Source: a virus | Reading direction: 5' to 3' (one strand) | Length of the DNA stretch: 21,714 nucleotides | IMG/VR virus record: IMGVR_UViG_3300009172_000076 | Coordinates: 1 to 21,714 of that record | Shown: positions 4,342 through 19,694 of the stretch, piece by piece | How positions within the stretch are numbered: position 1 is the first letter of the stretch | How the letters are laid out: every line of letters begins with the position of its first letter | The notes under the pieces: model-generated | What the model was told of the DNA's origin: nothing | The model's database searches: none | Seen by the model: only the letters and a program-made list of their open reading frames with translations | Made by a program: the position numbers and the translations under genes

Positions 4342-4431
4342 ATGAGTGATTTATTATTTTATATTAAGTGGGGAATAATCGGGTTTGTAATCGGTTGGCC
4401 CATTGGTTACGCAATAGGAACATTTATCTAA
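4342..4431 (+). CDS. 29-residue single-span membrane peptide
   Basis: ATG 4342 to TAA 4431 encodes 29 residues beginning MSDLLFYIKWGIIGF, almost wholly one transmembrane helix (residues about 10-28) with small-residue GxxxG-like spacing (GFVIGWPIG). It starts 2 nt after the DUF3310 stop and its stop overlaps the ketosynthase ATG (TAATG), a classic coupling arrangement, which is the main evidence that it is translated. AGGAA (4416-4420) within it serves the next gene. It could be a membrane tether or regulator for the lipid enzymes that follow. Confidence 0.6.
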   Translation: MSDLLFYIKWGIIGFVIGWPIGYAIGTFI

Positions 4432-5594
4432 TGAAAGATCGAATAGTAATTACTGGTGTTGGTTTGGTGGACACACTCGGAACATATCCAATGGAGTGTT
4501 TTGAGAACATGATCAGTGATCACTATGAACACCCAGTTGATTTTAAGACAGATATAGAGTCTCTCAAAGGATTGGTGTGTTTCAAGTCACGTGATGTGAA
4601 CTATACGATTCCAGCTGGTATTCGTAAACCAGTCTTCGGTTCTCTATCAACAGCATCTAAAAACGCTCTTCATGTTGTACAACAGGCAATGGGAGATATC
4701 GACAGTACCGATGTCGCGGTTGTATTCAGTTCGATTGCAGGAAAGGAAGGTATTAGGAATACAGACTTCTGTAATAAGATGGAGGGTGGTAAACGACTAT
4801 CCCCCCGAACTGCTGTACAGTATCTGAGGGACTTCTCCGCAGGGGTAATCAGTCAGACATTCGACTTCCGTGGTGCGTGTGTCAGTATGGATGCCGCTTG
4901 TGCGACTGGACTGTACTCTATTGATTATGCAATACACCTACTGGACACACATAGGTTTGTTATTGTTGGTGGGACAGATAATCCTGCTATGGATGATAAT
5001 ATGTTCATCTTCAGTCAGTTGGGTGCGCTTGGCACTGCGTCAAAACCCTTTGATAAGAAACGTGATGGGTTCGTCATGGGCGAAGGTGCGGGTGCCTTGT
5101 TATTAGAGAAAGAGTCTGAAGCACGGTTACGTGGTGCGAACATCATTGGGTACATTAACACCGTGTCTCACCATTCAGATGGTGCACTTGGTACACCTAC
5201 TGCACCAGACCCAAACAGTACGGGATCAATTGCGTCTATGACATCTGTCACCCAGAATATAGTTGGAGATGTTGCCTTTGTTAACGCACATGGTACATCA
5301 ACACCAATGGGAGATGACCTAGAGTACAATGCGATTCAGGAAGTCTTACCCAAAGTTCCGGTGATTAGTTTCAAGTCAAAGATTGGACACTCTCTTGCGG
5401 CCAGTGGTATCAATGAAACAATCTATAGTCTGTTGTGTCTCTATAACGGGGTTATACCGAAGAACTTTAATATAGATGAGTGTGACCATGAGTTTGTTTA
5501 TAAATACAAGCATCGATTGACAAGTAAAATTGCTGTGAAGAACTCGTTCGCATTTAGTGGAAGGTCTTCGTCACTGGTTCTGGAGGTAGAATGA
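4431..5594 (+). CDS. Beta-ketoacyl-ACP synthase (KAS I/II, FabF-like)
   Basis: Thiolase-fold enzyme that condenses acyl groups with malonyl-ACP in fatty-acid elongation. 387 residues, slightly shorter than bacterial FabF (~410). The N-terminus RIVITGVGLV is typical. The catalytic triad is complete: Cys157 in DAACATG, His287 in VNAHGTSTP, His320 in KSKIGHS. The usual C-terminal GFGG loop reads AFSG (about 374-377), a change in a loop near the active site that may affect acyl choice. Start 4431 overlaps the upstream membrane-peptide stop; an in-frame extension from 4368 is rejected because it reads through that gene. The 3' end overlaps the desaturase by 4 nt. A phage-borne KAS is uncommon. It might instead act on a polyketide-like substrate. 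Confidence 0.9.
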   Translation: MKDRIVITGVGLVDTLGTYPMECFENMISDHYEHPVDFKTDIESLKGLVCFKSRDVNYTIPAGIRKPVFGSLSTASKNALHVVQQAMGDIDSTDVAVVFSSIAGKEGIRNTDFCNKMEGGKRLSPRTAVQYLRDFSAGVISQTFDFRGACVSMDAACATGLYSIDYAIHLLDTHRFVIVGGTDNPAMDDNMFIFSQLGALGTASKPFDKKRDGFVMGEGAGALLLEKESEARLRGANIIGYINTVSHHSDGALGTPTAPDPNSTGSIASMTSVTQNIVGDVAFVNAHGTSTPMGDDLEYNAIQEVLPKVPVISFKSKIGHSLAASGINETIYSLLCLYNGVIPKNFNIDECDHEFVYKYKHRLTSKIAVKNSFAFSGRSSSLVLEVE

Positions 5595-6304
5595 TAACTG
5601 AATATCTAGGTAAAAACAGTGGGTACGTACATACAATATTTTATATAACGTGTGTACTCTTTACTGTGTTGTGGGTGCCGACATTATCAGTTGTCGAGTT
5701 CTTAGTCTGGTTTGTCGGTGCTCATACTTTTGTCGGATATCTAGTCTCTGCTTTCCAACATCGATACTGTGCACATAAGAGTTGGCAACCGTCAAGGTTC
5801 GTTGAAGTTCTCAGTGTTTTCCTGTGTGCCGGATTCGTGTTGATACCGAATATGGGATGGGCATCTGTCCACAAAAATCACCACAGATACACCGATACCG
5901 AGAAAGACCCACATGGTAATGTGCATAGTGTCTGGGATAACTTCATGGCATTCAACATTGCCCCCTCAAAACATGGTTGGCCTCGATGGATGTTCCGTGA
6001 CCTACTGTACCTTTACCAATTAAAATACTATTGGGAAATTGCGATCCTCTTTGGGGCATTGATGTTTGTGATTGGTATTGGTGAACTATGGTTATCGACT
6101 ATTGCTGTTGCATACATCTTCCAAGTCACTCTCAATATTGTAGGTCACCCAAATAGAAGTCCTGCTAATAGACCGTGGTTGGGACTATTATACAGTGGTG
6201 AACTATACCACAAGAACCACCATGATAACCCCAGCCTATCTAGGTTTGGTTTGATCGATGTTCCATACCTTTTATTCATAAAGTTCTTAGATACCAAGAA
6301 ATAA
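5591..6304 (+). CDS. Membrane fatty-acid desaturase (acyl-CoA/acyl-lipid delta-9 type)
   Basis: Introduces a double bond into fatty acyl chains using a di-iron centre. 237 residues with about four membrane helices. The three histidine boxes are present: HRYCAH (57-62), HKNHH (94-98) and HKNHH (207-211), together with the NIVGH extra ligand region. Short forms like this occur in bacteria and marine phages. ATG 5591 follows GGAGG (5582-5586) and overlaps the ketosynthase stop, so the two enzymes are translated together. An electron donor (ferredoxin or cytochrome b5) is not encoded nearby and would come from the host. Confidence 0.92.
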   Translation: MITEYLGKNSGYVHTIFYITCVLFTVLWVPTLSVVEFLVWFVGAHTFVGYLVSAFQHRYCAHKSWQPSRFVEVLSVFLCAGFVLIPNMGWASVHKNHHRYTDTEKDPHGNVHSVWDNFMAFNIAPSKHGWPRWMFRDLLYLYQLKYYWEIAILFGALMFVIGIGELWLSTIAVAYIFQVTLNIVGHPNRSPANRPWLGLLYSGELYHKNHHDNPSLSRFGLIDVPYLLFIKFLDTKK

Positions 6305-6927: not shown

Positions 6928-6935
6928 TATAAATA
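6928..6935 (+). promoter_or_regulatory. T4-type late promoter driving the curli/cyclase operon
   Basis: TATAAATA, the exact T4 late -10 consensus, in an AT-rich intergenic gap directly behind a terminator and with no convincing -35. In T4, transcription starts about 6 nt past this box, which here is at or within a base or two of ATG 6941, so the first gene would have almost no leader. It is the only promoter seen in the gap ahead of the gene block 6941-13233. Confidence 0.85.
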
Positions 6936-6940
6936 ACAAC

Positions 6941-7219
6941 ATGGATATACTAACCCTCATTTCAGAATTGGGGTTTCCTATTGCATCTGCCTTAATAGGT
7001 GGTTTCTTTATGTTTCTGACACTAAAGTATATTATGGATGGTGTGATAGGTCAGGTGAAATCCCTCAAAGGTATCGTAGGTAGCCTTGATAATCGTGTCA
7101 AAACTATGAATCATGATATGATTCGTATGGATACTACCATGTGTGTTGTTCTGGGAATAAGACCAGACCTCAATCGTATTAGTCGTGCAGACGGTAAGAA
7201 CGATGCGAGGAGAGATTAA
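6941..7219 (+). CDS. Membrane protein, GFPI family (paralogue of 7695)
   Basis: 92 residues. One N-terminal membrane segment (about 10-32, GFPIASALIGGFFMFLTLKYIM) followed by a helical, likely coiled-coil domain (KSLKGIVGSLDNRVKTMNHDMIRMD) and a charged tail. The N-terminal pattern MD-x8-GFPI-x-x-A is shared with the protein at 7695, so the two are paralogues and the ATG at 6941 is the natural start despite the very close late promoter. I recall similar proteins in marine T4-like phages without known function. Size and topology are compatible with a holin, but the long coiled-coil tail is not typical. Confidence 0.78.
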   Translation: MDILTLISELGFPIASALIGGFFMFLTLKYIMDGVIGQVKSLKGIVGSLDNRVKTMNHDMIRMDTTMCVVLGIRPDLNRISRADGKNDARRD

Positions 7220-7695
7220 TGATCGATCCAGTATCCGCAGTAATGACAGCAACTGCCGCATTCAATGGTATTAAGAAATTAGTAGAACGTGGTCAAGACA
7301 TGGAACACACGTTTACACAGATTGGCAAGTGGTACGGTGCCGTTAGTGATTTTAACGAAGCGAAGAGACAGGCGGAGAACCCTCCACTCTTTCGTAAGTT
7401 GATCAACAAGTCTTCGGTAGAAGAAGAAGCAATGAACATCTTCATCTCTAACAAGAAGATTAAAGAAGAAGAGACCCAGTTGCGTGAGCTCTTACTCTAT
7501 TCCTATGGCCCCAGTGCATATCAGGAATTAACTCAGTTACGGAGAGACATCCGAGAGAAGAGGGAAAGGGACGTGTATGCACAAGCGAGGAAACGGAAGT
7601 CACTCTTCTGGAACGCCCTTGGTTGGACATCAGTACTGGTGTTAGGTTATGGATTCTTCATAGTATTTAAACTCATATATTCGAATATCCCGTAA
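7219..7695 (+). CDS. Coiled-coil protein with C-terminal membrane anchor
   Basis: 158 residues: an N-terminal Ala-rich segment (MIDPVSAVMTATAAFNGIKK), a long charged helical region (about 55-130) and a C-terminal membrane helix (about 131-152, ALGWTSVLVLGYGFFIVFKL). It shares single-base overlaps with both neighbours, between the two GFPI paralogues, so the three are likely a complex or act together. I recall MIDPVSA-type proteins in marine myophages; their function is unknown. With both flanking proteins membrane-anchored, a role in the inner membrane during late infection (lysis timing or support of secretion) is a reasonable inference. Confidence 0.77.
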   Translation: MIDPVSAVMTATAAFNGIKKLVERGQDMEHTFTQIGKWYGAVSDFNEAKRQAENPPLFRKLINKSSVEEEAMNIFISNKKIKEEETQLRELLLYSYGPSAYQELTQLRRDIREKRERDVYAQARKRKSLFWNALGWTSVLVLGYGFFIVFKLIYSNIP

Positions 7696-7943
7696 TGGAT
7701 GTTGTATCAGTAGTTAACGATTTCGGTTTTCCGATAGTTGCGGCTGTCGGTATGCTTTATATGATTTACTTTGTGTGGAAGACCATTACAAACGAAGTCG
7801 AAAAGAACTTGTCCGAAACAATGACGGTGTTGATAGGTCTCATTGACCGTATCAGGATGTTGGATAATGATATAATTAGATTGCAACAGAAGTTAGACAC
7901 CGCAATCGAAATGAGGAGAAAAACAGATGAAGAAGAGATATAG
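7695..7943 (+). CDS. Membrane protein, GFPI family (paralogue of 6941)
   Basis: 82 residues with the same plan as the 6941 product: MDVVSVVNDFGFPIVAAVGM, a membrane helix, then a heptad-like helix (LSETMTVLIGLIDRIRMLDNDI continuing into a basic tail). Sequence identity is concentrated in the N-terminal GFPI motif and the helix ending DxIRx. The start overlaps the previous stop (TAATG) and the end overlaps csgF by 17 nt. The duplication with divergence of two small membrane proteins in one operon recalls holin/antiholin pairs, but there is no direct evidence. Confidence 0.77.
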   Translation: MDVVSVVNDFGFPIVAAVGMLYMIYFVWKTITNEVEKNLSETMTVLIGLIDRIRMLDNDIIRLQQKLDTAIEMRRKTDEEEI

Positions 7944-8412
7944 TTGGATACAACTCTTTGAGGGTACGTCACTGACAGTTGCGATGATTCTGATGATGTT
8001 GATAATCACAGAAGTATCAGTTGCCGCACCCATAGAGCACAAATTCAAATCTCCTTCCTTCAGTGGTATTAATCAGTCTAGTCACTATTTGACGATAGAG
8101 AACCAAGAGACCTCTAGGAAACAGGCGATAAAACAAGAGATTGAAGACCTCCAAGAACAACTGGAGAGGGACGCAGAGAATACTACTCTAGCAAAATTTA
8201 TTAGGAATGTGGAATCACGTATTTACTCTACACTATCCAGACAGATCGTTGACGGTATGTTCGGAGAGAACCCAAGCGACACGGGTTCGTTTAACATCGA
8301 AGGTACGGGCATATCATACGTTACAGACGGTGATAACGTAATATTAACAATAACAGACGAGAACGGTAATGTCACGACTATTACTATTCCCCTTGGTGAT
8401 TTTGGTATCTAG
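7927..8412 (+). CDS. csgF: CsgF-like curli assembly factor
   Basis: CsgF binds the CsgG outer-membrane pore at its extracellular mouth and helps place the fibre nucleator. 161 residues (E. coli 138) with a long Sec signal (1-33, cleavage near SVA/AP). The mature N-terminus HKFKSPSFSGIN mirrors the CsgF pattern FxFRNPNFGGN, the part that plugs into CsgG. The middle helix FIRNVESRIYSTLSRQIVDG (91-110) matches FTQAIQSQILGGL, and the C-terminal strands (YVTDGDNVILTITDENGN) match the CsgF beta region. An insertion at about 60-85 (charged, helical) is extra to the E. coli form. It precedes csgG with a 44-nt overlap, so the pair is coupled. Confidence 0.88.
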   Translation: MKKRYSWIQLFEGTSLTVAMILMMLIITEVSVAAPIEHKFKSPSFSGINQSSHYLTIENQETSRKQAIKQEIEDLQEQLERDAENTTLAKFIRNVESRIYSTLSRQIVDGMFGENPSDTGSFNIEGTGISYVTDGDNVILTITDENGNVTTITIPLGDFGI

Positions 8413-9169
8413 TTGTGCCAGTCTCGGAGGAGGTAATTTCGAGATACCAAGTGTGGAAGAACCGAAAGTACAACTTACTCTGTTACAGAAAGAGTTAAAG
8501 AATGTTTCGGAACCGACTAGGAAACCCACGGTGGCAGTGTATGAATTCACTGACCAGACGGGACAGAAGAGACAGAACAGTAGTGGCGGAACCTCATTCA
8601 GTTCTGCGGTTACTCAGGCACCCAATGTATATTTGATAAGAGCATTGACACGTGCATCCAACGGAAACTTCTTCCGAGTGGTTGACCGTCAAATTATTGA
8701 CCATGTGACGAGGGAACGACAGTTAATCCGTCAAACCCGACAATCATACGAGGGAAACGACTCTCAGAAGCTGCCAGCACTCACTTTTGCTGGCATGATA
8801 ATTGCAGGAGGTATAGTAGGGTACGATACCTCTGTTGACACAGGCGGAGCTGGTGCTAGATATCTTGGCATCGGTACTTCCCGTGAATATAGTAGAGACA
8901 CTGTGACTATCAATATTCGATTAGTGTCTGTGGCAACAGGTGAGGTTTTACTTGATGTGATATCAAGCAAGACCATACTCTCCACCGCTTTTGGCGGAGA
9001 TGTGTTTAAATTTATCGAACAGGGTACTGAACTGGTTGAGATTGAATCGGGCAGTACAAAAAACGAATCCGTTTCCATTGCAACACAAAGGGCGATAGAA
9101 GCGGGAGTCTTGGAACTTATACTGAGAGGAAGTAAGTATGGTTTCTGGACGCTTAATGGAGAGAAGTAA
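8369..9169 (+). CDS. csgG: CsgG-like outer-membrane secretion pore lipoprotein
   Basis: CsgG forms a nonameric outer-membrane channel that secretes unfolded curlin subunits. 266 residues (E. coli 277). The lipoprotein signal is short, with lipobox LVSSC (Cys16). Landmarks shared with E. coli CsgG, by eye: VAVYEFTDQTGQ (56-66), the loop ending TSFSSAV (75-81), whose Phe77 would correspond to constriction Phe56 while Asn55 becomes Ser, GGIVGYDTSVDTGGAGARY (147-165), IRLVSVATGEVL (183-194) and SKTILS (200-205). The last ~15 residues of the E. coli protein are missing. ATG 8369 lies inside csgF, and the overlap encodes the whole signal peptide. No disabling changes are seen. Confidence 0.94.
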   Translation: MSRLLLFPLVILVSSCASLGGGNFEIPSVEEPKVQLTLLQKELKNVSEPTRKPTVAVYEFTDQTGQKRQNSSGGTSFSSAVTQAPNVYLIRALTRASNGNFFRVVDRQIIDHVTRERQLIRQTRQSYEGNDSQKLPALTFAGMIIAGGIVGYDTSVDTGGAGARYLGIGTSREYSRDTVTINIRLVSVATGEVLLDVISSKTILSTAFGGDVFKFIEQGTELVEIESGSTKNESVSIATQRAIEAGVLELILRGSKYGFWTLNGEK

Positions 9170-9170
9170 A

Positions 9171-9905
9171 ATGAACGCAAAGCAAACGGGTGCGATTCCT
9201 ATGTTCGCTATGATGTTCGTGATTGGTGCTGTGTATGCAGACAATGAAATATATATTGATCAAGTAGGAAGTAGTACTGCTATCGAGATTATTCAAGATG
9301 GTAGTGGCAACAAAATAGGTGGCGGACTCACTGATGAAACAAAGATGTTACTCAGTGGTGACGATATGGACATTAACTTAAACTTCAGTGGTTCTACGAA
9401 CAACTTGATTGGTTCCCTGATTGGTTCTAATTCGGTACTAGACGTAGACGTGACAGGGTCAGGTAACGACCTGTTCTTTGATGTTGATAAAGATAATGCC
9501 TATGGCGCTACAGGCGGGAACTATCTCGTATCTATCACTGGTGGTAACAACGCAGTGGACTTTGATTTTGGTTCACTTGATACCGCAAACGATACGGACT
9601 TTGACTTTATATTGGACGGTGATTTTAACACTGGCGATATAAACATAGATGCATCTAGTCTGACATTCGACATGGATGTGATATCAGATAATTCCAACCT
9701 AGATTATTCAGCAACTGGTTATGATGGCCATCGGTTTATATTGACTGGTACAGGAAACTATTGGGACATTGATGTTACCCAAGAGTCTACTCTACAGTCT
9801 GATTATTTGGAGATATATTATAGTGGTTCAGGCACATCTACCCAAAACGCTACTGTTTGTATTGTTCAGTCTGACGGTGGTTTCGTCAACACTTGCGGCC
9901 AGTAA
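9171..9905 (+). CDS. Curlin-repeat-like secreted protein (candidate fibre subunit)
   Basis: 244 residues with a Sec signal (cleavage near VYA/DN, residue 23). Right after it is one clean curlin-type unit: Q31-x-G33-x-x-T36-x4-Q42-x4-N47 (IDQVGSSTAIEIIQDGSGN), which matches the CsgA/CsgB QxGxxN...Q...N pattern. Further Gly/Asn turns follow at uneven spacing (SGSTN 73-77, GSGN 96-99, TGGN 114-117, TGGNN 123-127, TGTGN 192-196), separated by strongly alternating Asp/hydrophobic strands (DVDV, VDFDFG, DFDFIL). A Cys pair (230, 242) ends the protein. ATG 9171 starts 1 nt after csgG, which suggests it is the CsgG client. It could alternatively be another beta-solenoid adhesin. No clear extra canonical units. 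Confidence 0.72.
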   Translation: MNAKQTGAIPMFAMMFVIGAVYADNEIYIDQVGSSTAIEIIQDGSGNKIGGGLTDETKMLLSGDDMDINLNFSGSTNNLIGSLIGSNSVLDVDVTGSGNDLFFDVDKDNAYGATGGNYLVSITGGNNAVDFDFGSLDTANDTDFDFILDGDFNTGDINIDASSLTFDMDVISDNSNLDYSATGYDGHRFILTGTGNYWDIDVTQESTLQSDYLEIYYSGSGTSTQNATVCIVQSDGGFVNTCGQ

Positions 9906-10938
9906 TGACGTAGGTTTGGTTGACCGAGCAGTTGGATGGAGACAGATAGTAAGGAATGAACAACCCTTAGAACCCAACAAGGGTGAAGAGGTGATATCTA
10001 AGGACGATCTTCGCACAGGCGAGGGTCGTTTGCAGGTACGATTCAGAGATGACAGTAAATTAAGAATGACCGAACACACACGTATTGTGATTGACAATGT
10101 AGTGTTTGATGATGACCCAAGCAAGTCTGACTTGGCGATGACCTTTGCCCAAGGTACTGCAAGATTCATATCTGGTCAGTTGGGTAAGGTAGACAAAGAG
10201 AATATCAGACTCAAGACCCCTACCGCATCTATCGGTATCAGGGGTACAGACTTCACAGTAACCGTTGATGAGTTCGGTAAGACGCTCGTGGTACTTTTGC
10301 CAGACGTTAACGGAATCTCTTCGGGTGAGATTATTGTTTCGACAATGACAGGTGAAGTCACACTCAACAAACCTTTCCAGTCTACCACAGTAGACGTGAT
10401 GGAGAACCCCCCTAGTGCGCCAGCAATCCTAGACCTTACTCTGGATATGTTGAACAACATTATGATTATCAATCCCCCTAAAGAGAAACAGTCTAAAGAA
10501 GACTTCATGGATACTATAAACGCATCCAAGGGCATTAGTTCGTTAGACGTGGACTTTCTTAACGAAGACTTGTTACAAGAAGAAGAACTTGGGAAAGACT
10601 ATCTGGAATTTAATGAACTCGACATCAACTACTTGGACGTTGACTTGTTAGAAGACCTACTGGATAATTTCGATTCTTTGGGAGAGGACGTGTTGCAAGA
10701 ACAACAGTCTAGTGGCGACTTACGTATCGAAGGTACTGAAGAAGGGTTCGACCCAGTCACACAGGTTGCCACTATAGTAGAGGGCGACAAGGTGACGATA
10801 CGCAGAGAGGTGAATGACAAGGTGGTTATCTCGGTAGACAAGTCAGCTGCGACAGTTATAAGTATAGAGCAGGATGGTAAGGAACTAGAGGCAATCAAAC
10901 TTAATGGTATCGACAACTTGATAAGTATAGTACAATGA
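9823..10938 (+). CDS. FecR-domain periplasmic/exported protein with curlin-like C-terminus
   Basis: 371 residues from GTG 9823 (GGAG at 9809-9812). This start gives a good Sec signal (LPKTLLFVLFSLTVVSSTLA, cleavage near 25) encoded wholly inside the end of the curlin-like gene. The FecR domain (about 30-150) shows LRTGEGRLQVRFRDDSKLRM, MTFAQGTARFISG and TPTASIGIRGTDF, all typical. Next comes an acidic Leu/Asp-rich stretch with repeated LDVDFLNEDLL / LDINYLDVDLLEDLL units (about 235-285). The last 22 residues (350-371) read Q-D-G-x4-A-x3-N-G-x2-N-x5-Q, close to one curlin unit. FecR domains in bacteria often sit beside CHASE2 cyclases, as here (4-nt overlap). A CsgB-like nucleator role is inferred. 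Confidence 0.82.
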   Translation: MVQAHLPKTLLFVLFSLTVVSSTLAASNDVGLVDRAVGWRQIVRNEQPLEPNKGEEVISKDDLRTGEGRLQVRFRDDSKLRMTEHTRIVIDNVVFDDDPSKSDLAMTFAQGTARFISGQLGKVDKENIRLKTPTASIGIRGTDFTVTVDEFGKTLVVLLPDVNGISSGEIIVSTMTGEVTLNKPFQSTTVDVMENPPSAPAILDLTLDMLNNIMIINPPKEKQSKEDFMDTINASKGISSLDVDFLNEDLLQEEELGKDYLEFNELDINYLDVDLLEDLLDNFDSLGEDVLQEQQSSGDLRIEGTEEGFDPVTQVATIVEGDKVTIRREVNDKVVISVDKSAATVISIEQDGKELEAIKLNGIDNLISIVQ

Positions 10939-12755
10939 AGACATGGCACGTATTCGTAACACTTGTGATACTGGTGGGACTGAGGTTACTTGACCCGTTC
11001 CTATTAGAGAGTACTCGACTTTCATTCTTTGACTCATTACAACGTGGTCAGGAGACCCAACTGTCCGAACAGATTGTCCTTGTTGATATTGACGAGGAGA
11101 CTCTGGCAAAGTTTGGTCAGTACCCAATCCCACGTAAGGTAATGGCAGATGAAATCGATAAGATAGAAGGTAGTCTTATTGCGTTCAACATTCTGTTCAG
11201 TGAACCTGACAGGGCGGGTGGAGACGAATACTTTGCGGACATCCTATCGTGGAAGAATACAGTAGTTGCCATTGCACCGTCCAACAGAACCAACACAGAC
11301 TACAGACCTCCCCGTATCGGAACCGCAACGTTCGGTGACAGAGATGCCGAAGACTTCCGACCTTTGGTGGAAGGTATGCTTTTTGCACAACCAGTGATAC
11401 ATGAAGCGGCACTTGGTTATGGAACTATCTCATCCGCACAGGACGTTGATGGTATCATCCGTAGACAACCACTACTAGAAAACTTTGACAACAGACTCTA
11501 TCCCGCATTTGCGTTAGACGTATTGAGGGTTGCAGCCGGAGATTCGTCCTACCAGATATCAACAGACGAGTACGGTATTCAGTTTGTTCGTATTCCCAAG
11601 TTCACACCAATACCCACAGATAGTCAGGGTAACGTTACAGTCGCATACTGGAATGAGTTCAAGAGATATTCCTTTACTGACCTCTCAAGTATACCAGAGG
11701 GGTCTATAATCATCGTAGGCGGGAGTTACGCAGGTTCTAGTGTAGTTAGTACACCTATGGGTTCTATGTATCCGCATGACGTACAAGCAAATCTGGTCAA
11801 GACAATGATCGGGGGTGTGACCATCGAACGACCCCCAGAATTTATTTTCTATGAGCTCTTGACAACTCTTGTATTATGTGGTATAATCCTAGCTCTTCTA
11901 GGGAAGGCTGATATACTAATTTCAGGAGTGTCGTATGTCATCATAATTGGTGGTATTCTGTATGTGGTCAACGAACTATTCAATACCCAGTATCTCCAAC
12001 TAGACCCAACATTCCCAATTATCACATTGACCTTGGTGTTTGCTCACGGTTCCTTTGTTCAGTTCTATGTACAGTTCAAAGCTAAACAACTTATTAAAGG
12101 ACAGTTCGGTACGTACCTATCACCCGACATGGTAGATATGTTGGCCAAAGACCCCAGTCTACTGAAGTTGGGTGGAGAGAAAAAAGAGATGACATTCCTC
12201 TTCATGGACATTGTAGGATTCACCCCCATATCAGAACACTATAAAAACAAGGACGATGCGGAAGGGTTGGTTATACTCATTAATAACTACCTAAATGAGA
12301 TGACTAATATTATCCTAAATAACGGTGGAACCATAGATAAGTATATGGGTGATTGTATCATGGCGTTTTGGAACGCCCCCTTACCTTGTGAGAATCATGC
12401 TGAGATGGCAGTGAAGTCCGCAATAGAAATAGAAGAGAAGACAGATGAACTTAGACAGAGATACATTGCGGAAGGTTTACCACCGATTAACGTTGGAACT
12501 GGTATCAATACTGGGTCTTGTATTGTTGGTAATATGGGTAGTGAGTCACGGTTTGATTATTCAGTCATCGGAGACGCAGTCAACCTTGCCGCAAGACTTG
12601 AAGCAACTGCCGCAAGAGGAGACTATCTTGAATACAAAACTATCTACTCCAAAGCAACCAAAGACCAACTCATAGATATAGAGTCAAGTCCGATAGGACT
12701 CATTAAGGTAAAAGGAAAGGAAGAAGAAATTGAAATCTATACACATAATCGATGA
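10935..12755 (+). CDS. CHASE2-domain class III adenylate/guanylate cyclase
   Basis: 606-residue membrane sensor cyclase making cAMP (or cGMP) from NTP. One N-terminal signal/membrane helix (5-22), a periplasmic CHASE2 sensor (about 25-300, with VLVDIDEETLAKFGQYP and GSIIIVGGSYAG), three membrane helices (about 305-385), a short linker (FGTYLSPDMVDMLAKDP) and a catalytic domain (about 410-600). Catalytic residues look intact: metal-binding Asp425 (FMDIVGFT) and Asp473, base-binding Lys469 (DKYMGD), Asn550 and Arg554 (GDAVNLAARLE). The second base-selecting position is Ser543 where bacterial adenylate cyclases usually have Thr, so ATP is favoured but not certain. Overlaps fecR by 4 nt. Confidence 0.93.
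   Translation: MKTWHVFVTLVILVGLRLLDPFLLESTRLSFFDSLQRGQETQLSEQIVLVDIDEETLAKFGQYPIPRKVMADEIDKIEGSLIAFNILFSEPDRAGGDEYFADILSWKNTVVAIAPSNRTNTDYRPPRIGTATFGDRDAEDFRPLVEGMLFAQPVIHEAALGYGTISSAQDVDGIIRRQPLLENFDNRLYPAFALDVLRVAAGDSSYQISTDEYGIQFVRIPKFTPIPTDSQGNVTVAYWNEFKRYSFTDLSSIPEGSIIIVGGSYAGSSVVSTPMGSMYPHDVQANLVKTMIGGVTIERPPEFIFYELLTTLVLCGIILALLGKADILISGVSYVIIIGGILYVVNELFNTQYLQLDPTFPIITLTLVFAHGSFVQFYVQFKAKQLIKGQFGTYLSPDMVDMLAKDPSLLKLGGEKKEMTFLFMDIVGFTPISEHYKNKDDAEGLVILINNYLNEMTNIILNNGGTIDKYMGDCIMAFWNAPLPCENHAEMAVKSAIEIEEKTDELRQRYIAEGLPPINVGTGINTGSCIVGNMGSESRFDYSVIGDAVNLAARLEATAARGDYLEYKTIYSKATKDQLIDIESSPIGLIKVKGKEEEIEIYTHNR
11859..11887 (+). promoter_or_regulatory. Perfect sigma70 promoter sequence inside the cyclase gene
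   Basis: TTGACA (11859-11864), exactly 17 nt, TATAAT (11882-11887), inside codons for the first membrane helix after CHASE2. If used, it would transcribe the catalytic half and the 12730 gene without the sensor. No leader of family A or B follows it, so activity is uncertain. Confidence 0.4.
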
Positions 12756-13233
12756 TTTCCTAACACCCGAAGATTACGCGGAAGTTATGGAACTTTCAAA
12801 AGATATTCATCTACACGAAGCTGAAGACTATTCTAAGAAGTATGGTACAAAGACTAACGACTATGCGTGGAAAACGTGGAATGGTTGTAGACGTAGTGAC
12901 AACTATGTGGACTTTCTCGACTTTTTCAGTGATAAGGTCAACCTTCACTATAACGTAAAGATTTCTAGGTTAGAGTTCTTTACCCACCCCCTAGAGAAGT
13001 TTCCCATATACGAACAGGAGACTCAACAACACATCGATGCCTTGTTCGAGTTCTCTGGTGTCCTCTACCTTGACGAAGGTGCTGTAGGACTAGGTACTAC
13101 AATTGGTACTGAATATGTTGAGTGGAAACCCAATCGATTAGTGACATTCCCCGCATTAACCTACCACAATCCCCACTTTGGCGGAACTGAACGAACCGTT
13201 CTGACTTTCTTCTCTCATAAGAAAAAGTTATAA
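12730..13233 (+). CDS. DUF6445/2OG-Fe(II) oxygenase-like protein
   Basis: 167 residues. IHIIDDFLTPEDY is the typical opening of prolyl-hydroxylase-like phage proteins. The HxD motif is H101-x-D103 (QQHIDALFEFSGVLYL), with H146 or H149 (YHNPHF) and R155 (TERTVLTFF) completing a 2OG-oxygenase-like set; this arrangement also fits DUF6445. Start is TTG 12730, behind an AAGGAAGGAAG ribosome-binding region and overlapping the cyclase by 26 nt; no ATG gives the conserved opening. Last gene of the late operon. Target unknown; hydroxylation of a protein or small metabolite is possible. Confidence 0.75.
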   Translation: MKSIHIIDDFLTPEDYAEVMELSKDIHLHEAEDYSKKYGTKTNDYAWKTWNGCRRSDNYVDFLDFFSDKVNLHYNVKISRLEFFTHPLEKFPIYEQETQQHIDALFEFSGVLYLDEGAVGLGTTIGTEYVEWKPNRLVTFPALTYHNPHFGGTERTVLTFFSHKKKL

Positions 13234-15793: not shown

Positions 15794-16067
15794 ATTTAAT
15801 TTTAACGATGTAGTTGCTGTGATGTGTAACTCAGGTGAATATGTAGGTAAGTTCAAACAAGAAGGTGCTAATACTATTACAATTACCGACCCTCGTATGG
15901 TCGTGAGTAATGAACAGGGTCTTGGTTTCGCACATGGTATTTGTGTGACTGGTAAGGCAGATGTTACTTCGGTGGACATCTATAAGAGTAGTATTTGTTT
16001 TGTTACACTGGTCAACGATGACCTGCGTAAAGCATACACCACTAACACGAGTGGTATTATTCTGTAA
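15786..16067 (+). CDS. Small beta-rich protein, possibly Sm-like
   Basis: 93 residues. Pattern VVAVMCNSGEYVGKFK ... NTITITDPRMVV ... SSICFVTLVNDDL ... NTSGIIL gives about five short strands, like an Sm/Lsm barrel; I recall comparable proteins with a C-terminal TSG motif in marine T4-like phages. RNA binding is only a possibility. ATG 15786 has GGAG (15776-15779) at 6 nt; ATG 15783 and 15774 are in-frame alternatives. TAATG overlap with the ATP-grasp gene. Confidence 0.7.
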   Translation: MSEFNFNDVVAVMCNSGEYVGKFKQEGANTITITDPRMVVSNEQGLGFAHGICVTGKADVTSVDIYKSSICFVTLVNDDLRKAYTTNTSGIIL

Positions 16068-17254
16068 TGAAACGTAGGATTCTTTGTCTAGACTATGGAC
16101 TAAGTAATTTTCACAACCTAATCGCAATGGCCAAGGATGGTCATAAGGTCTTCGTGACAAGCGGAGATTACGATAAATCTCCGGTTGCGTATTACAAATC
16201 TCTGGGTATAACCACCCTTGATAACTATCTTAGTAGTAGAGAATCTTGGTTACACAAATTTATAGAGGTTGAAGATATTAACACTATCATCAACCTCGAT
16301 CCAAACCGAGAAGTATTCCGACAAAAACATGATCATAATGCCGCCGACTATATTGGTCTTAGTACATTAGGTTGCCACTTAGAAACTCGCAAATTGTGGT
16401 GTCGGAAACAGGTCGGAAAACTTGGGGTTAAACTGCCGAGGTTGTTGGACACTGTCGAAACACCCTGTGTTATCAAACCCAAAAAGACCACGAACAACAT
16501 GGGCACGGTTTCGTGTACATACGTTGTACTAGGTGAATATGGTAAGGAGTGGGTGCGTACAAATCCTAGTCCGGCATCAATACAATCTTGTTATATTGAA
16601 GAGTACATCTCTAATGCTATTGAGACTAATGTAGAGTTTGTTGTGTCTGGTGGTAAGTGGTCTATCCAACACTGTCAACAGACTATGGGTGAAGAGGTGT
16701 CGAAACTGGTGGGTCGTACCACTCACTGGACTAACCAAGCGAGTTTTGCCAAGTTGACTGGTGAGAACCGTGACCTTACAATTGAGAACGCAACTAAGAT
16801 TCTGGACTGGGTAGCTACACTGGGTGGTAGTTTTCAAGGTCAGTTGACAGGTCTAATCAAAAACGGTGAGTGGTATTTCTCTGAGATAAACTCAAGACTT
16901 GCTGTATCGAATAGTCTGCCGATCTTCTGTACGGGAGACGAGTATCTGAGATCGATGTTGGAGGGTGAACCTGACATCATTGGCAACGCATTCCCTTGGG
17001 ACGTTCAGAAGATTGTAGTACAACCCATAACCCCAGATGCGATATATCCCTTCCATCTACACGAGAAACATGGGGTCTCTGTACCCTGTGGACTAGACAT
17101 CATTGACGGAGAATACCGAGTTTCTAAGTTATTTCGACCATATTCATCGGATGGATGTATCGGAATTGTCATCTGTGACCGTGAAATACCACTAGATTTC
17201 ATCAAAGAATTTGAAAATAATTCGAACTTTTCGGTAAGTCATTGTTTTATATAG
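16067..17254 (+). CDS. ATP-grasp ligase-like protein
   Basis: 395 residues. N-terminal pre-ATP-grasp region (ILCLDYGLSNFHNLIAMAKDG; then a Rossmann-like KVFVTSGDYD), central ATP-binding strands (CVIKPKKTTNNMGTV; CYIEEYIS) and the metal-binding end of the grasp domain (GSFQGQLTGLIKNGEWYFSEINSRLA, with Glu and Asn). The layout resembles PurD, PurK and carbamoyl-phosphate-synthase-type ligases, but it lacks features that would fix the substrate. The C-terminal ~100 residues are not assigned. Overlaps the upstream gene by 1 nt; expressed as the last gene of the 14559 promoter unit. Confidence 0.78.
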   Translation: MKRRILCLDYGLSNFHNLIAMAKDGHKVFVTSGDYDKSPVAYYKSLGITTLDNYLSSRESWLHKFIEVEDINTIINLDPNREVFRQKHDHNAADYIGLSTLGCHLETRKLWCRKQVGKLGVKLPRLLDTVETPCVIKPKKTTNNMGTVSCTYVVLGEYGKEWVRTNPSPASIQSCYIEEYISNAIETNVEFVVSGGKWSIQHCQQTMGEEVSKLVGRTTHWTNQASFAKLTGENRDLTIENATKILDWVATLGGSFQGQLTGLIKNGEWYFSEINSRLAVSNSLPIFCTGDEYLRSMLEGEPDIIGNAFPWDVQKIVVQPITPDAIYPFHLHEKHGVSVPCGLDIIDGEYRVSKLFRPYSSDGCIGIVICDREIPLDFIKEFENNSNFSVSHCFI

Positions 17255-18978: not shown

Positions 18979-19694
18979 ATTTTAAACATGAACCAGTCAC
19001 GTTGACTGAAATGAATGCAGTGACCACTGATACTGGTCGTAAGTATATGACACCCGAAGGCATTAACCTTCCGTCTATTACAACGGTGCTATCCATTTTG
19101 TCACGTGACTCCATCGCCAAGTGGCGTAAACGTGTTGGTGCTGCAGAGGCGAACCGTGTCTCATATCGTGCATCGACCCGTGGTACATCTGTTCACGAAA
19201 TCTGTGAGAAGTACGTGAACAACGACCCAGCCTATGACAAGTTCATGGCAACCGACCCCGACACTGGGGAACAAACGTTGACTACCCGCACACCTGACCT
19301 AATCGATTCTTTCCTAAAGATTAAACCAATCCTCGATGAACGTCTGACTACGGTGTACGCACAAGAAGCACCCCTGTACTCTACCCATCTGGGTGTTGCA
19401 GGTCGTGTGGATTGTGTGGGTATCTTCGATGGTAAACTATCCATCATTGACTACAAGACTTCTATGAAACCCAAGAAACTCGATTGGGTTAAGAACTACT
19501 TCATGCAGGAAGCAGGTTATGCTGTAATGTGGGAAGAACGTACTGGTCAACCGATTACTCAGTTGGTTACTATTATCTCTGTTGATAATAACGAACCTCA
19601 AGTCTTCATCGAACATCGTGATAACTGGATTAATACGTTAAGAAATACAATTAAACAGTATAATGAGGAAAACTCTGCTTCCATTTTGTTATAA
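18975..19694 (+). CDS. PD-(D/E)XK nuclease, RecB/Cas4-type
   Basis: 239 residues. The RecB-family motifs appear in order: GTSVHEICEKY (H74), E131 in the strand before GVAGRVDCVG, Asp146, D159-Y-K161 in IIDYKTS, and Q178-x3-Y182 in QEAGYAVMW. These form the metal site and the QxxxY helix of Cas4/RecB-type exonucleases. No Cys cluster for a Fe-S site is visible, so it is closer to simple phage exonucleases than to Cas4. ATG 18975 is chosen over 18864, which reads through the upstream membrane gene. Role in DNA recombination or degradation is inferred. Confidence 0.87.
   Translation: MNFKHEPVTLTEMNAVTTDTGRKYMTPEGINLPSITTVLSILSRDSIAKWRKRVGAAEANRVSYRASTRGTSVHEICEKYVNNDPAYDKFMATDPDTGEQTLTTRTPDLIDSFLKIKPILDERLTTVYAQEAPLYSTHLGVAGRVDCVGIFDGKLSIIDYKTSMKPKKLDWVKNYFMQEAGYAVMWEERTGQPITQLVTIISVDNNEPQVFIEHRDNWINTLRNTIKQYNEENSASILL

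Follow-up and report, generated by a model that had tools for sequence, protein, structure and literature searches.

The virus record IMGVR_UViG_3300009172_000076 of IMG/VR, analysed here over its whole length (the window; 21,714 bp, 42.4% G+C, with nothing that marks a complete genome), carries on its plus strand an operon of curli-type genes behind a T4-type late promoter motif. With moderate confidence, this operon is read as a phage type VIII (curli) export module with a periplasm-to-cytoplasm sensor loop, expressed late in infection. Eight genes follow the motif, encoding a small transmembrane protein (TM1), a protein of 158 amino acids (aa), a second small transmembrane protein (TM2), CsgF, CsgG, a curlin, a FecR-domain protein and a CHASE2 cyclase, with an oxygenase-like gene behind them (Table 1). 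The reading is favoured by the profile matches of CsgF, CsgG, FecR, CHASE2 and the cyclase, the family evidence for the curlin, the integrity of the module, low ratios of non-synonymous to synonymous differences (pN/pS) and the retained catalytic residues of the cyclase.

The finding is not new in kind, because the module has already been described in print. The accessible text of PMC9599517 reports it from pelagiphage podo- and myophages as one or two histidine kinases, CsgF, CsgG, CsgA/B, FecR, often a second CsgA/B and a cyclase, together with metatranscriptome evidence of its expression, and accessible parts of PMC7029224 and PMC9004378 describe it as well. A preliminary description of the window, made from its letters, had named marine myophages as carriers of csgF and csgG; this is correct, and the literature goes further, as curlin, FecR and cyclase are part of the published module (PMC9599517). 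New here are a separate virus group with one curlin, doubts about the histidine kinase label, the reading of FecR together with CHASE2 and the suggestion of a leaderless start.

Gene order and conservation of the module

The open reading frames (ORFs) of the operon adjoin through overlaps of 1 to 83 nucleotides (nt) and one 1-nt gap, and the coding sequences for the signal peptides of CsgG and the FecR-domain protein lie inside the gene before each, at its 3' end (overlap 44 and 83 nt). ORFs, Pfam profiles and structure models thus bear out the gene list of the preliminary description, with its single strand and its overlaps or 1-nt gap; its claim that CsgF, CsgG, curlin and cyclase share an operon headed by a late promoter motif also held, and the arrangement proved common to many viral contigs. 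The outer-membrane pore of type VIII secretion is represented by a strong CsgG match and its partner by a match over the full CsgF profile. CsgG contains the tetrapeptide VSSC, which by the usual rule we take to be a lipobox. The start of the FecR ORF is the GTG chosen in the preliminary description, and the frame is open further upstream.

Table 1. Features of the curli operon in the window
Feature	Position	Strand	Evidence or remark
Late promoter motif TATAAATA, T4-type	6928..6935	+	5 nt before ATG at 6941
TM1, 92 aa, N-terminal membrane segment, coil-like tail (tail by eye)	6941..7219	+	phrog_18771 E 1.7e-31
158-aa protein, C-terminal membrane segment, accessory	7219..7695	+	phrog_32327 E 8.3e-6
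TM2, 82 aa, TM1 paralogue, weakly holin-like	7695..7943	+	phrog_18771 E 6.9e-27; phrog_4898 holin E 1.4e-4
csgF	7927..8412	+	Pfam CsgF E 1.2e-17, profile positions 3-132 of 132
csgG, outer-membrane pore lipoprotein	8369..9169	+	Pfam CsgG E 4.2e-49, 167.1 bits
Curlin, candidate secreted subunit, predicted beta-solenoid	9171..9905	+	family profiles, model, invariant residues
FecR-domain protein	9823..10938	+	Pfam FecR E 3.1e-12; model; C-terminal motif; GTG start, first 83 nt inside curlin gene
CHASE2 sensor and class III nucleotide cyclase	10935..12755	+	Pfam CHASE2 E 1.7e-39, Guanylate_cyc E 1.4e-18
2-oxoglutarate (2OG)-oxygenase-like gene	12730..13233	+	phrog_274 E 1.6e-7; H-x-D ... H ... R pattern by eye

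Relatives of CsgG occur at 74 loci in viral contigs and relatives of the cyclase at at least 80. Gene order was counted over 81 distinct csgG ends, one locus each, the window included, wherever the flank sufficed; the window's own excerpt (L001) and the loci of the cultured phages HTVC008M (L002) and Melnitz (L003) were left out. Over these 81 loci the order is constant. Two TM genes stand upstream of csgG in 67/67 and csgF lies directly upstream in 75/77, the two misses (L140 and L142) having csgF with TM2 between csgF and csgG. Downstream follow curlin (79/79), fecR (72/72) and cyclase (51/51), so that the csgF-csgG-curlin-fecR-cyclase order of the published pelagiphage module is reproduced. 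Median pN/pS, calculated over loci selected by hand from the window's clade (12, or 11 in the case of the cyclase), was 0.11 for TM1, 0.16 for csgG, 0.21 for both cyclase and fecR, 0.22 for TM2, 0.23 for csgF and 0.27 for curlin, making TM1 the slowest and the curlin the fastest evolving gene of the module; the ratios are indicative only, because synonymous differences are high (median pS 0.61-0.75).

HTVC008M (KC465899; a Pelagibacter phage) and Melnitz (MZ577097; a Methylophilales phage) carry the module collinear with that of the window, at 43.9% and 38.5% identity in CsgG and 44.5% and 35.7% in the cyclase, respectively, over the matched part. Both possess a second curlin. Unlike them, the window has fabF-like and desaturase genes just upstream and the 158-aa gene between TM1 and TM2. 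The published pelagiphage module likewise has the order of the window, led by one or two small genes, and often a second CsgA/B (PMC9599517, accessible text), which is lacking from the window's clade. Across related loci, a second curlin was present in 29 of the 51 that could be tested and absent from 22.

The curli genes of Escherichia coli lie in the operons csgBAC and csgDEFG. Bacterial curli loci (Bacteroidota, Gammaproteobacteria and others) resemble the window in that CsgG mostly stands beside CsgF and/or curlin, but at 76 of 79 genome CsgG loci no phage-type FecR, cyclase and TM pair turned up in the DNA examined. The full module was present at the other three, one on a phage-like contig in a Saprospirales metagenome-assembled genome and two on contigs of one Rhodobacteraceae bin; one of the three contigs measures 20,286 bp, exactly as long as a viral contig with a cyclase relative. 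The scan hardly sampled the alphaproteobacterial curli operons named as closest in the accessible text of PMC9599517. The two Rhodobacteraceae contigs (L159 and L160, coverage 64 and 5.4) hold two curlin ORFs each and are perhaps binned phage contigs. A further CsgG match (37.9%) lies in OR851715.1, filed under Salmonella phage S.Kent 1-2-1, a record so short (1,499 bp) that it may be host DNA deposited as phage.

Curlin, FecR-domain protein and cyclase

The assignment of the 9171 product as a curlin is sound as a family, where the fold speaks for a solenoid and the name curlin depends on sequence and gene context. Structure-model alignments were made from thinned sets (59 FecR and 41 curlin rows), with one structure per protein as single chains. 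The window protein by itself stays below threshold for Curlin_rpt (E 0.027, 14.9 bits; cut-off 20.7), while 30 of the 41 family members match (best 5.2e-5). Against PDB sequences, the family profile retrieved the curlin 8c50 first (E 0.0013), an agglutinin second (E 0.027) and the E. coli CsgA fibril 8enq third (E 0.027), and hidden Markov models of the phage curlins matched ORFs in the neighbourhood of bacterial csgG genes (best E about 2e-37). Invariant across the family are Q31, G33, Q42, G44 and N47, at the mature N-terminus, and the mature window protein counts 37 D+E vs 4 K+R. The model is a beta-solenoid of 17 strands (predicted local distance difference test, pLDDT, 82.9; predicted template modelling score, pTM, 0.79). 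Family matches, PDB profile matches and solenoid model together are those expected of a secreted curlin with repeats. In fold comparison the SufB/SufC/SufD complex ranked best (Z 17.9, 2.5 A, 191 residues), with the CsgA fibril further down, in the company of numerous other beta-helices (Z 11.9, 8.8 A, 110 residues, 21% identity). In HTVC008M, the second curlin (L002:10638-11963) has a long N-terminal region that looks to us like a PA14-type carbohydrate-binding domain, a possible tip adhesin; the second curlin of Melnitz is shorter and by eye has no such region.

The FecR-domain protein begins like a signal peptide, matches Pfam FecR from residue 61 and has no further hydrophobic segment above the cut. 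Its model resembles the PupR domain 6ovk (Z 14.3, 2.7 A, 138 residues) and BDI_1681 (Z 13.2, 2.7 A, 133 residues), as befits the periplasmic signalling domain of FecR/PupR-type anti-sigma regulators; the cytoplasmic anti-sigma domain and membrane anchor of such regulators were not found in the protein. Its profile gave no match to PDB sequences at E up to 1. A C-terminal beta domain (pLDDT 73-88 in blocks from residue 301) was barely covered by the fold comparison. The protein ends in [ILVF]x[ILVFM]xQ plus 0-2 residues in 79 of 83 distinct relatives, which are not independent; by hand reading, two of the four exceptions are truncated ORFs and the other two carry three residues after the Q. This ending was found in 0/78 csgG, 0/77 csgF, 0/91 cyclase, 0/139 TM-family, 0/24 thyX and 0/21 dnaB products, and the Q of the terminal I-x-I-x-Q is invariant in the 59 aligned proteins.

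The motif resembles a curlin strand, and the protein was considered as a second curlin or nucleator. The hhalign comparison of its C-terminal part with the curlin profile aligned three columns at a score of 14.8, against 14.5 for the best of 30 column-shuffled controls, and Curlin_rpt was not among the 19 families listed for the 59 FecR proteins. Having failed both profile tests, the motif is kept as a lead only. The window has no second curlin either; of the pore, partner, candidate substrate and candidate nucleator that the preliminary description saw together, CsgG, CsgF and the curlin stand, and a separate nucleator of the CsgB kind was not identified.

The accessible text of PMC9599517 takes FecR for an iron-dependent regulator; from sequence and gene neighbourhood it reads better as the partner of the CHASE2 cyclase. 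A parallel is the BiofilmReg operon of Burkholderia, where the accessible text of PMC5192318 places a gene for a secreted FecR-domain protein beside a CHASE2 sensor, as in the window, in a biofilm context; there the FecR protein has LysM and the output is a histidine kinase, in the window the output is a cyclase within a curli module. Within the class of the Rhodobacteraceae bin (presumably Alphaproteobacteria), 103 of 289 genomes gave FecR matches. Among the matches listed, full-length FecR matches occurred only on the two module contigs of that bin, the others covering mainly the FecR domain, and by hand count, in the genomes covered by both the FecR and the CHASE2 search, 18/80 lay within 5 kb of a listed CHASE2 match on the same contig, a figure that leaves out those two contigs.

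The window-type cyclase looks active. Aligned relatives keep both metal-binding Asp, the Lys and the Arg in 90/90, the transition-state Asn in 89/90 and the substrate Asp in 88/90, and the residues expected of a class III adenylate cyclase (Asp pair, Lys/Asp pair, Asn/Arg pair) are all in place. The Melnitz cyclase (L003:13658-15709) has Ser for the transition-state Asn, its catalytic domain diverges in other respects too, and it is possibly altered or inactive.

Membrane pair, promoter motif and neighbouring genes

TM1 and TM2 are paralogous, both matching phrog_18771, and homologous to ORFs ahead of csgF in HTVC008M and Melnitz (tblastn relatives of TM2 in both). TM1 is the most conserved protein of the module (median identity 90.5% over 12 relatives). 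Each has one hydrophobic segment. The genes in front of csgF are called histidine kinases in the accessible text of PMC9599517, a label that looks doubtful for the window and its HTVC008M and Melnitz relatives, in which the alignments scanned show no kinase domain: HisKA and HATPase were not among the Pfam families listed for 33 TM2 (25 of 30 families) and 28 TM1 (12 of 12), and proteins of 82-116 aa, as this family has, leave little room for one. TM1/TM2 are equated with the published kinase genes by position and number. Matches to the holin family phrog_4898 were obtained for 16/33 TM2 and 3/28 TM1, to the Rz-like spanin family phrog_89 for 6/33 TM2 and to YvrJ for 7/33 TM2 (best E 0.057). 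That the pair are holins is not concluded, the best match being merely E 1.4e-4.

The motif TATAAATA occurs three times on the plus strand of the window, ahead of TM1, at 5499 (inside the fabF-like frame) and at 19690. Among related loci (not de-duplicated), (N)ATAAATA lies within -100 to +130 of the first TM frame in 112/123. In 75 distinct upstream regions, NATAAATA stands 4-10 nt ahead of the ATG of the first TM gene in 48 and exactly 5 nt ahead in 30; GGAG, GAGG or AGGA at the usual place was found in 0/48 regions with the close motif vs 6/27 of the others. An open ATG frame begins 4-8 nt downstream of 25% of 272 distinct TATAAATA sites, vs 2-12% for six control 8-mers, of which the one at 12%, AATAAATA, is itself a variant of the motif. 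If the box lies at about -13 to -6, as in the T4 late promoter, transcription would begin at or next to the A of the ATG. A motif 5 nt from the ATG thus suggests a leaderless late mRNA. The same NATAAATA motif is given for cyanophages in the accessible text of PMC2984593; no report of leaderless starts with this late promoter surfaced in a limited literature search.

Some related loci have the motif close before the csgF and cyclase genes too. Sixteen distinct csgF starts have a late promoter motif of their own, all outside the window's clade, and by hand reading 13 of these have an inverted repeat just past the ATG (e.g. L002:7562-7588, L054:2652-2678 and L145:1609-1635), with apparently compensatory changes between loci by eye. 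A hairpin as a general feature of leaderless starts was rejected (mean z -0.10 over 90 starts vs 0.01 over 200 controls); values of z below -1.5 were obtained for 18/90 starts vs 19/200 controls and the feature is clear only in the csgF subset outside the window's clade.

The remaining genes are peripheral to the module. The 158-aa gene has 11 entries among related loci, counting the window and its own excerpt L001, and tblastn relates its product to hypothetical proteins from Roseobacter CRP phages and from Limnohabitans phage DC31, a possible hint to the host. The oxygenase-like gene has no Pfam match and is placed outside the module core because only part of the related loci carry it (30, not de-duplicated). 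Upstream genes are of T4-like phage type (DnaB-like helicase, ThyX, beta-ketoacyl synthase and fatty-acid desaturase). Among the matches listed, the closest DnaB is that of the Kyanoviridae phage C48C1 (70.4%), in which tblastn found no CsgG. The fabF-like ketoacyl synthase and the desaturase (4368-6304) lie directly upstream of the curli operon, so that in the window they co-occur with it; genes of this type are reported from freshwater phages lacking curli (PMC7029224, accessible part). Related loci, not de-duplicated and with the window included, have fabF in 9 and desaturase in 19 cases. Further downstream, the product of 16067-17254 weakly matches an ATP-grasp-like family (CPSase_L_D2, E 1.1e-4).

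Proposed function and its alternatives

Gene identities, order, conservation, late promoter motif and intact catalytic residues are read from the sequences, and the steps that connect them into an export and sensor module are put forward conditionally. CsgG would form the outer-membrane pore, with CsgF at its neck, and the acidic curlin, exported by Sec, would exit through this pore and assemble on or around the infected cell. The FecR-domain protein, also exported by Sec, may serve as the periplasmic partner of CHASE2 and report the state of export to the cyclase, the output of which is probably cyclic AMP (cAMP), while the TM1/TM2 pair would be an inner-membrane part of the module and might act as a scaffold, a channel or a gate. 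For the phage, the likely benefit would be an altered cell surface late in infection, acting as a barrier to co-infecting phages or in the capture of neighbouring cells, both of which have been proposed in print.

A more ambitious version closes the loop: FecR, with its curlin-like terminal strand, would dock in the periplasm on the curlin or on CsgG/CsgF and signal via CHASE2 to the cyclase, the phage would in this way gauge assembly at the surface and use cAMP to set late timing, TM1/TM2 would be a new core inner-membrane component and no histidine kinase, and the late mRNA would be leaderless. Taken as a whole, we consider it rather improbable.

Several observations weigh against an export and sensor module. 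Neither cytograms nor transmission electron microscopy showed the Melnitz authors any clumping, according to the accessible text of PMC9004378. By fold alone, SufB/SufD solenoids resemble the window curlin more than the CsgA fibril does, and this curlin has a single clear repeat, located where the mature protein begins, the predicted beta-solenoid behind it being very acidic. Six large related phage records, which may be incomplete, gave no match for CsgE, the accessory gate; no search for CsgC was made. The phage-type FecR profile matched within 1.5 kb of a CHASE2 gene at only 3 of 30 bacterial loci, and beside the CHASE2 cyclase of a curli-bearing Pseudoalteromonas no FecR gene was seen by eye in the 4 kb examined. 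Finally, the cNMP_binding domain was not found in the same six phage records, and the target of cAMP would therefore have to be in the host.

Among the alternatives, CsgG and CsgF may have been put to a new use, the timing of lysis by a gated pore in the outer membrane that resembles a secretin or pinholin, and TM1/TM2 would then be its holin-like inner-membrane partner. A pore of this kind is proposed for Melnitz in the accessible text of PMC9004378, which reports the Melnitz genes, and the late promoter motif and the holin and spanin matches of the TM proteins agree with it, but the best holin match is weak and the spanin matches may be coiled-coil noise. The same text holds csgA/csgB to be absent, yet two products in the Melnitz record as deposited are annotated as curlin associated repeat proteins and one as a FecR domain protein (the HTVC008M record likewise labels a curlin-associated protein, noted as CsgB). 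Breakdown of the envelope by the pore, which the preliminary description had also raised, is possible, yet a lysis pore leaves curlin, fecR and cyclase, constant and at low pN/pS, unexplained, and we regard it as unlikely. The set might instead be a domesticated signalling device, with the FecR/CHASE2 cyclase as its main product, cAMP reprogramming the host and the curli part an input sensor and no fibre factory. The retained catalytic residues fit this, a plasmid with Sinorhizobium meliloti CyaD1 minus CHASE2 makes cAMP constitutively (PMC5498481, accessible text), and host CRP-type proteins could be the target, given the phage records without a cNMP-binding domain; since the cyclase is no more constant than curlin and pore, the proposal appears quite unlikely. 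Uptake of nutrients or cofactors into the infected cell through the pore, as suggested in accessible parts of PMC7029224 and PMC9599517, would suit the records without CsgE, but CsgF, the curlin and the FecR/CHASE2 pair are left unexplained and nothing found here speaks for uptake, which makes it very unlikely. A neutral hitch-hiker or an assembly chimera, the latter named in the preliminary description as a chimeric join to bacterial sequence in this one assembly, deserves practically no credence, having no observation in its favour and being refuted by the 81-locus analysis with its constant order over many viral contigs, by the 74 related CsgG loci, by pN/pS of 0.11-0.27 and by the kept promoter motif.

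If the export and sensor module works, the virus would equip its host late in infection with a novel structure on its surface and a cAMP circuit that senses the envelope; according to the accessible text of PMC9599517, type VIII secretion is lacking in known Pelagibacter. The window adds a phage clade, distinct from the two cultured types, whose module is conserved and has low pN/pS, with the constant TM1/TM2 pair and the FecR/CHASE2 pair as specific, testable parts. The kind of module being already in print, the value of the present case lies in questioning the labels of its parts and in offering mechanics that can be tested.

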